A stretch of 64,000 bases of DNA from assembly GCA_016790635.1 (NCBI GenBank), contig JAEUOR010000013.1, forward strand, positions 124,001 to 188,000. Direction: 5' to 3'. Positions 31,056-32,965 of the stretch are shown here, piece after piece. The notes below the pieces were generated by a model. That model was not told where the DNA came from. It did no database searches and saw nothing but the letters and a program-made list of their open reading frames with translations. Position 1 is the first letter of the stretch. Each line of letters begins with the position of its first letter. The position numbers and the translations under genes are program-made. The DNA is from Burkholderiales bacterium. GTDB taxonomy: Bacteria; Pseudomonadota; Gammaproteobacteria; Burkholderiales; JAEUOS01.

Positions 31056-32156
31056 CTACGGCCGCCACGGCTCGCTGTAGTTCTCCGCCCCGCTCGCGCG
31101 AATGTCGCTGAGCCAGTCGCCCGCGTAGGGCCAGTCCTCGGGACGGTCCGGGTGCGGGCCTTGCCAGAAGCGCGCCAAGGGGCTATCGCCGACCTTCTCC
31201 AACGACCACGCCTGGCGGCGGAAGGTCCAGCTTTCCGGCACCAGGCGATGCGCCTCGCGAAAGTGCGGGATCGCGGCTGCGTGCTTGCCCTCGATCTCGA
31301 GTTGCGCGGCGAGCGCGAAGTGGGCGTGGCCCAGGGCATGGTCGGCATCGCGTGGGCGCGAGCGCGCGACCACTTCATCTGGCGCGAGCGCGAAACGGCT
31401 TGCCGCACCCTTCTCTACCCAGTCGTGCAGCGCGGCGTGGTAACCGGCCGCGTCCTTCCTGATCTTGGCGGCCTCGGCCATGATGTCCTTGAAGCGCTGG
31501 GGCATCTCTGCGGGCATGCTGAATCCGGGCGGACTCGCGGCGTCGCGCGGCGGGGCGGGCGCTGCTTCGGCCGGGCGCACGATCACGCCGTGCTCGTCGA
31601 TCCACACGCTGCTGGGGATGTTGATGACGCCGAAGAGGTCGGCCAGCACGTGGTGCCGGTCAATGAGGGAGGGATGCTCCGGCTTGGCTGCCTCGATGAA
31701 GGCGCGGCAGCCGTCGTTGCCCAGCGTGTCCAGTCCGACGGCGACCAGTTCGAAACCCTTGGGCGCATATTTGTTGCGCAGTGCCTGCCACACGGGCAGG
31801 TCGCGGGAGCAGCCTCAGTAGGGCGCCCAGGCGAAGAGCAGCACCTTCTTGCCGCGCAGGGACGACAGATGGAAGGTCCGGCCTTGGAGGTCAGGCAGGC
31901 TCATTTCCGGTGCCTGGGCCGTGGCGAGCGCGCGAGCGCCGATGGCGGCCGGCCCGAGCGCCCACAAGCCCTCGCCCTTGGCCTCGACCAGCGGCATGCC
32001 CATGTCGGCCGCCACCGCAGTAACGTCGACCGGATCACCGGCAGGCCGCGATAGCGGGATACAGACCTCGCCCTGGCAGACACCCTCGGGCTTGAGTTGC
32101 CAGCCGGTGCCGGCTTCGAACTCGCGTCTGGAAATCTTGAGTGAGCGCAGCAGCAT
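31056..32156 (-). CDS. Candidate selenoprotein: redoxin/TlpA-like thiol-disulfide protein with in-frame UGA (Sec114)
   Basis: The frame is open over 366 codons except for a single UGA at codon 114 (31817-31815). Before it lie an N-terminal module with KPEGVCQGEVCIPL (Cys27, Cys32) and the start of a thioredoxin fold (LPDLQGRTFHLSSLRGKKVLLFAWAPY). After it the same frame continues GCSRDLPVWQALRNKY and VAVGLDTLG, the active-site helix and next strand of a TlpA/AhpC-like domain, then IPSSVWIDEHGVIV, which carries the expected cis-Pro region. A TPR-like helical tail (about residues 265-320) ends the protein. The UGA thus sits where these proteins carry the redox Cys. A SECIS-like stem-loop starts 14 nt downstream. 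The start has GAGGA upstream. If UGA is read as stop, the product is a 113-residue fragment. A nonsense mutation of a TGC Cys codon is the main alternative. Confidence 0.7.
31784..31800 (-). promoter_or_regulatory. Putative bacterial SECIS element
   Basis: On the coding strand the stem CCTGCC (31800-31795) pairs perfectly with GGCAGG (31789-31784) around the 5-nt loop CGTGT. The stem begins 14 nt and the loop 20 nt after the UGA. A G is the second loop base. This fits the known bacterial SECIS layout: a hairpin just downstream of the UGA with a G early in a small apical loop. Confidence 0.6.
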
Positions 32157-32221
32157 GTCGGGTCCTCAGTCTGGTGGATTGCAGGCGGTCAGAGCGCGGC
32201 GGGGTGCCGAGCCTACGCCGG

Positions 32222-32965
32222 CTACGACGTGCTCGCGGGCGCGACATTGACCCCGCGCACCTGGTACTTCGCGATCAGATTGCCGACGAGCTCCTTCTTG
32301 ATGTCCTCGACGAAGCCACGCAGGTAGGCCGCGCCGACCTGCCGCGCGATCGGCGTGCCGATGGCCTGCTGCACGGCAGTGAACTGGCCTTTCAGGATGC
32401 GCGAGCCGGGCAGCCTGGCCTGGTCGGCCACCAATCGCGGTCCGAGCCCGGCCAATGCATCGAGCTTCGCGGCGACAAACAGGTCATAGGAGCCGTCTAT
32501 TCCGACGGCGCGTTCCAGCGTCGCGTGTTTCAGAGTGCGCCTCAGGTACATGTCGTAGGCGGCCTTGTCGGCCACCGCGATGCGCACGCCCGGGCGGTCG
32601 ACTTCCTCGATGCTCGCAATCGGCGAGCCCGCCGGGACAAGGTAGCTGGCGGGAATTTCCAGGTAGGCCGCGGTGAAGGCGATCTCGGCGGCGCGCAGCG
32701 GGTCGGCGCCGATGAGGCCCACATCCCACTCGTCCTTGGACGCCGCCGCGGCAAGGTCGCCGGGCAGTGCGTAGGGGACGAAAGTCACCGGCACGCCCAA
32801 CCGACGCGCCAGTTCGCGGCCCACGTCCGGCGCGACGCCGGTCGCCTCGCCTCCGGGCGGGTTGCTGCTGATGAGAAGGAAGTTGGCGAGGTTGAGCGCC
32901 ACGCGCAGGCGGCCGGAAGGGGCCAGGTCGGCGCGGACGGGTGTGATGTCGACGGATGCGGGCAT
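32222..32965 (-). CDS. Solute-binding protein family 3 (SBP_bac_3) without signal peptide
   Basis: The 247-residue protein has the amino-acid-receptor fold: LRVALNLANFLL at the start, APDVGRELARRLGVPVTFV, and WDVGLIGADPLRAAEIAFTAAYLEIPASYLV in the middle. Receptors of this family normally have a Sec signal, but here the N-terminus is charged and not hydrophobic, so export is doubtful. It may act as a cytoplasmic ligand sensor or be mis-started, although no signal sequence is visible upstream in frame. It is 65 nt upstream of the candidate selenoprotein gene on the same strand and is divergent from the GntR gene. Confidence 0.82.
   Translation of the reverse strand: MPASVDITPVRADLAPSGRLRVALNLANFLLISSNPPGGEATGVAPDVGRELARRLGVPVTFVPYALPGDLAAAASKDEWDVGLIGADPLRAAEIAFTAAYLEIPASYLVPAGSPIASIEEVDRPGVRIAVADKAAYDMYLRRTLKHATLERAVGIDGSYDLFVAAKLDALAGLGPRLVADQARLPGSRILKGQFTAVQQAIGTPIARQVGAAYLRGFVEDIKKELVGNLIAKYQVRGVNVAPASTS

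Follow-up and report, generated by a model that had tools for sequence, protein, structure and literature searches.

A ResA-like gene of the WAxxUGC family in a Burkholderiales bacterium, with an in-frame UGA that is very probably read as selenocysteine

Results

Does the UGA that interrupts a redoxin-like frame in this Burkholderiales contig end translation, or is it read as selenocysteine (Sec)? The frame lies within the 64,000-nucleotide stretch that we analyzed (the window), on the minus strand, a strand that the first-pass annotation had left unstated. It runs from an ATG at 32156-32154 to a TAG at 31058-31056 and comprises 366 codons; as that annotation had claimed, a single UGA, codon 114 (31815..31817, minus strand), stands in it. 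A Shine-Dalgarno-like GAGG (32164..32167, minus strand), read from the sequence, is located 7 nt 5' of the ATG and may serve as the ribosome binding site. Under table 11, the gene falls into two open reading frames of 113 aa (32156..31815) and 245 aa (31793..31056), which is the split by gene callers that had been predicted. When TGA was translated as Sec, a coding sequence at 31056..32156 (minus strand) was obtained that specifies 366 residues, and the motif at the redox site reads WAPY-UGA-GC (WAPYUGC), with the codon for Cys116, which pairs with Sec114 within U-G-C, at 31809..31811 (minus strand). A gene for a family 3 solute-binding protein (window 32222-32965, minus strand), without an obvious hydrophobic leader, precedes the selenoprotein gene on the same strand and ends 65 bp before it. 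A conserved operon was considered and rejected, since neighbors are kept only inside the acidobacterial group and none convincingly across groups. Searches of plasmids gave no full-length match to the gene and searches of viral contigs gave no match, and plasmid and viral origins were likewise rejected.

The read-through protein belongs to a family that is already known and named. It matched NCBIfam model NF041054 (WAxxUGC_long, "ResA-like WAxxUGC motif-containing protein") with 487.4 bits against a curated cutoff of 300, and the match extended over residues 1-364 and positions 1-352 of the 354 in the model, so that both flanks of the UGA form one protein, as had been proposed. It has the WAxxUGC motif of the family, with UGA as the codon for U; we found no difference from the family and regard the gene as a new member. 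A UGC-containing Prx-like selenoprotein family of 46 sequences was described in a 2008 GOS ocean survey (PMC2398784), and a "UGC-containing TlpA disulfide reductase family protein" is listed in a 2026 review (PMC13188914). Both combine an AhpC/TSA or TlpA-type domain with U-G-C, as does the window protein, and are likely the same as NF041054, a match made by tabulated domain and motif alone. Within the order, 4 of 399 genomes carry the gene above the NF041054 cutoff and three more have matches at 281-295 bits; in the tree, moreover, a Reyranella sequence was grouped beside the betaproteobacterial ones. Because carriers are so few and because of this placement, loss or transfer of the gene is likely. 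Related short TlpA-like genes with a WASWUxxC motif were seen in other genomes of the order (L054, L057, L059, L074, and L075), each of them bearing selA. Another related protein that is shorter than the window protein (L053:1501-2244, minus strand) has WSSWUSC and clear TPR repeats and is perhaps intermediate between the short and long forms.

The predicted structure places the UGA at the active site of a thioredoxin fold. Pfam assigned the region from about residue 80 to residue 194 to AhpC-TSA and Redoxin, and the full-length model had a pLDDT of 87. The redoxin core (residues about 77-195; 31572..31928, minus strand) has a ResA/TlpA-like thioredoxin fold by Pfam and by Foldseek and VIA comparison with ResA: VIA gave a Z score of 16.7 against ResA 1st9 (rmsd 2.6, 136 residues aligned), and the core was also similar to 3gl3 (Z 17.9, rmsd 2.2, 139 residues aligned). 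In a profile alignment, Sec114 corresponds to the N-terminal Cys of ResA, which bears out the earlier placement of the UGA at the N-terminal redox Cys of TlpA/AhpC-like proteins; Cys116 falls at the position of the second Cys, the CxxC being shortened by a one-residue deletion. The window protein therefore shares the ResA-type fold with the ResA/TlpA oxidoreductases but has U-G-C (U-x-C), one residue shorter, in place of their C-x-x-C active site; unlike them, it also has an extra N-terminal domain and a helical C-terminal part and no apparent membrane anchor. Inspection of residues 1-40 by eye revealed no hydrophobic N terminus. With no apparent signal peptide, the protein is probably located in the cytoplasm.

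The N-terminal domain (residues 1-71; 31944..32156, minus strand) was modeled confidently on its own (pLDDT 93) and contains invariant Gly18, Lys22, Gly25, Cys27, Cys32, and Pro34. No credible Pfam family was found for the window copy of this domain, and a search of the PDB gave no Foldseek match below an E value of 0.001 and a VIA Z score of at most 2.6, which does not by itself make it a new fold. The helical C-terminal part (31077..31499, minus strand) is defined by helices of the model and contains one TPR-like repeat (residues about 271-312), seen as a weak Pfam TPR_2 match and as similarity to TPR repeats in the PDB.

We then asked what homologues carry at codon 114. In an alignment of 22 homologues from proteobacteria and acidobacteria, including the window's own, the codon is TGA in 21 (20 of 21 when the window gene is excluded), across the two phyla, and TGC in one, L037; Cys116 is invariant in all 22. 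The UGA is thus paired with Cys in L037, and this Cys homologue also scores above the NF041054 cutoff. Of the 21 genomes with TGA, 18 have selA above cutoff; none was found in G411, the genome of the Cys homologue. Within the order, six of the seven gene carriers have selA; the exception, G103, has its copy of the gene on a 4.4-kb contig. Among the TGA genomes outside the order set, the figure is 12 of 14, and in the other two selA is split in two frames (G407) or is a weak partial match (G401). selA was also present in all nine genomes of the order chosen for short TlpA-like UGA matches compared with 15 of 32 others, a contrast that is an indication only, as the 32 comparison genomes were picked by hand.

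Selection on the half of the gene downstream of the UGA was assessed with the four nearest homologues (L025, L046, L047, and L048), which come from the order and from a betaproteobacterial metagenome-assembled genome. Amino acid identity to these was 72-75% before the UGA and 82-85% after it, and dN/dS downstream of the UGA was 0.10-0.21. These values indicate that purifying selection persists downstream of the UGA, and the comparison of synonymous with nonsynonymous change that had been suggested thus came out in favor of the selenoprotein interpretation, the downstream half being conserved at least as well as the upstream half. While a lone stop in an open frame resembles a fresh nonsense mutation, a Cys gene turned into a pseudogene by a nonsense mutation, or given its TGA by a sequencing error, is extremely improbable in view of the TGA at the same codon in 20 other genomes of two phyla and the purifying selection downstream of it.

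The genome also contains the machinery for Sec insertion, for which the first-pass annotation had advised a search: selA, selB, selD, and tRNA-Sec are all present. The tRNA-Sec gene (C18:280779-280869) scored 75.5 bits, above cutoff, and ARAGORN gave the anticodon as TCA. selB and selA adjoin it on contig C18, and selD is on C37. The assembly is fragmented (90% complete, 5.6% contamination), and the binning of selA, selB, and selD with the gene's contig rests on composition and on a genome of the same genus, G137, which has both the selenoprotein gene and selA. Tetranucleotide profiles of C4, of the sel region on C18, and of the selD region on C37 correlated at 0.87 to 0.96, like the other contigs of the genome. 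We therefore assign the Sec machinery to the gene's own organism with small doubt. Two different tmRNA genes were noted in the assembly, on C18 and C37 (L001 and L002). The end of C37 that carries the second tmRNA fits the composition less well (0.80 to 0.90) and is possibly a mobile element or contamination.

A putative SECIS hairpin, CCUGCC-CGUGU-GGCAGG, is located at 31784..31800 (minus strand), with its apical loop 20 nt 3' of the UGA. The bacterial SECIS model calls for a loop of 3-9 nt, a stem of 4-16 bp, a G in loop positions 1-2, and a spacing of 16-37 nt from the UGA (PMC13188914); the loop CGUGU (5 nt), the 6-bp stem, the G, and the 20-nt spacing all lie within these limits. The hairpin is located in codons +3 to +10, the segment of highest synonymous codon conservation in the gene (observed minus expected identity of 0.42 versus 0.07 elsewhere). 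The 6-bp stem can form in nearly all UGA homologues, and it is not kept in the Cys homologue, where four of the six pairs form, no more than expected. Random synonymous codons, which reflect only the amino acids and the codon bias, gave 5.2 of 6 pairs on average in the window gene, and the hairpin taken singly is therefore not significant. When related sequences were pooled, 124 of 126 pairs were formed compared with 109.7 (standard deviation, 3.4) expected, an excess inflated by relatedness. The folding energy of the hairpin in the window gene was ordinary relative to shuffled sequences and gave no signal.

Discussion

We consider it highly probable that this member of NF041054 genuinely encodes a selenoprotein and that its UGA 114 is decoded as Sec by SelB and tRNA-Sec, helped by the downstream hairpin; the comparative evidence supports the first-pass interpretation of the locus as a selenoprotein gene. 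UGA can always terminate translation if Sec-tRNA is scarce. A regulated switch could therefore be imagined in which Sec is inserted but low selenium leaves only the 113-residue fragment, with a role of its own. Most of the redoxin domain, however, is missing from the upstream part, which in the nearer homologues is also less conserved than the remainder, and we regard such a switch as very unlikely. Similarly improbable is a UGA that acts as a real stop and leaves a functional piece of 113 or 245 residues, or that is read as another residue. The standard reading does yield two open reading frames, but a stop here would sever the fold at its active site, the two halves show the conservation of a single protein, and the Cys homologue is a single uninterrupted chain; moreover, the presence of Sec machinery in the genome argues against both termination and another residue.

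Returning to Sec as the residue at position 114, we can outline how the protein may work. What the sequence itself shows is the gene with its conservation, the Sec machinery, a predicted fold, and how the active site aligns; that Sec is actually inserted, and what the substrate, the partner, and the role of Cys27/Cys32 are, we infer. SelB and tRNA-Sec would insert Sec at codon 114, aided by the hairpin just 3' of it, and Sec114 would be the attacking residue within the ResA-like thioredoxin fold. Reduction of a peroxide or a disulfide would then leave a Sec114-Cys116 selenenylsulfide, to be reduced in turn by thioredoxin, by glutathione, or by the conserved N-terminal Cys27/Cys32 pair. The product is most likely a cytoplasmic thiol oxidoreductase or peroxidase that depends on Sec and forms such a selenenylsulfide, and the odds lean modestly toward a disulfide or peroxide as what it reduces. 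A more tentative proposal, which we hold to be rather unlikely as a whole, is that the long family constitutes a distinct cytoplasmic enzyme in which the N-terminal C-x4-C domain relays electrons to the U-G-C center, or binds metal for it, and in which the C-terminal helices form a docking surface.

One point of the first-pass annotation did not fit this genome. It had contrasted the candidate with formate dehydrogenase, selenoproteins other than that enzyme being uncommon in this group of bacteria. The matches to the formate dehydrogenase alpha subunit in the genome contain no in-frame stop, and in two of the three best, including the best one, Cys occupies the usual Sec site (L102, RLCHASS; L104, RICHSTT); the site of the third is unreadable by the motif used. 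An AhpC-TSA scan of the genome instead gave three TGA-bearing matches, the window gene and two further redoxins. One of these is a peroxiredoxin with UGA at FAFTGGU (L112, C74:121795-122175, minus strand), for which the nearest NCBIfam model is PrxU, below cutoff. The other, with the motif GHWUPYC, lies on C18 (L086:8250-8720, plus strand; C18:280249-280719) and has only weak matches to NCBIfam peroxiredoxins. It points toward the tRNA-Sec gene and ends ~60 bases short of it; tRNA-Sec is on the opposite strand, and selB and selA lie beyond it.

The locus confirms that genes of this kind are real and yet are split under ordinary gene calling. Each of the three UGA genes found encodes a redoxin, and the readable formate dehydrogenases have Cys, so that redox proteins may be what keeps Sec in this organism.
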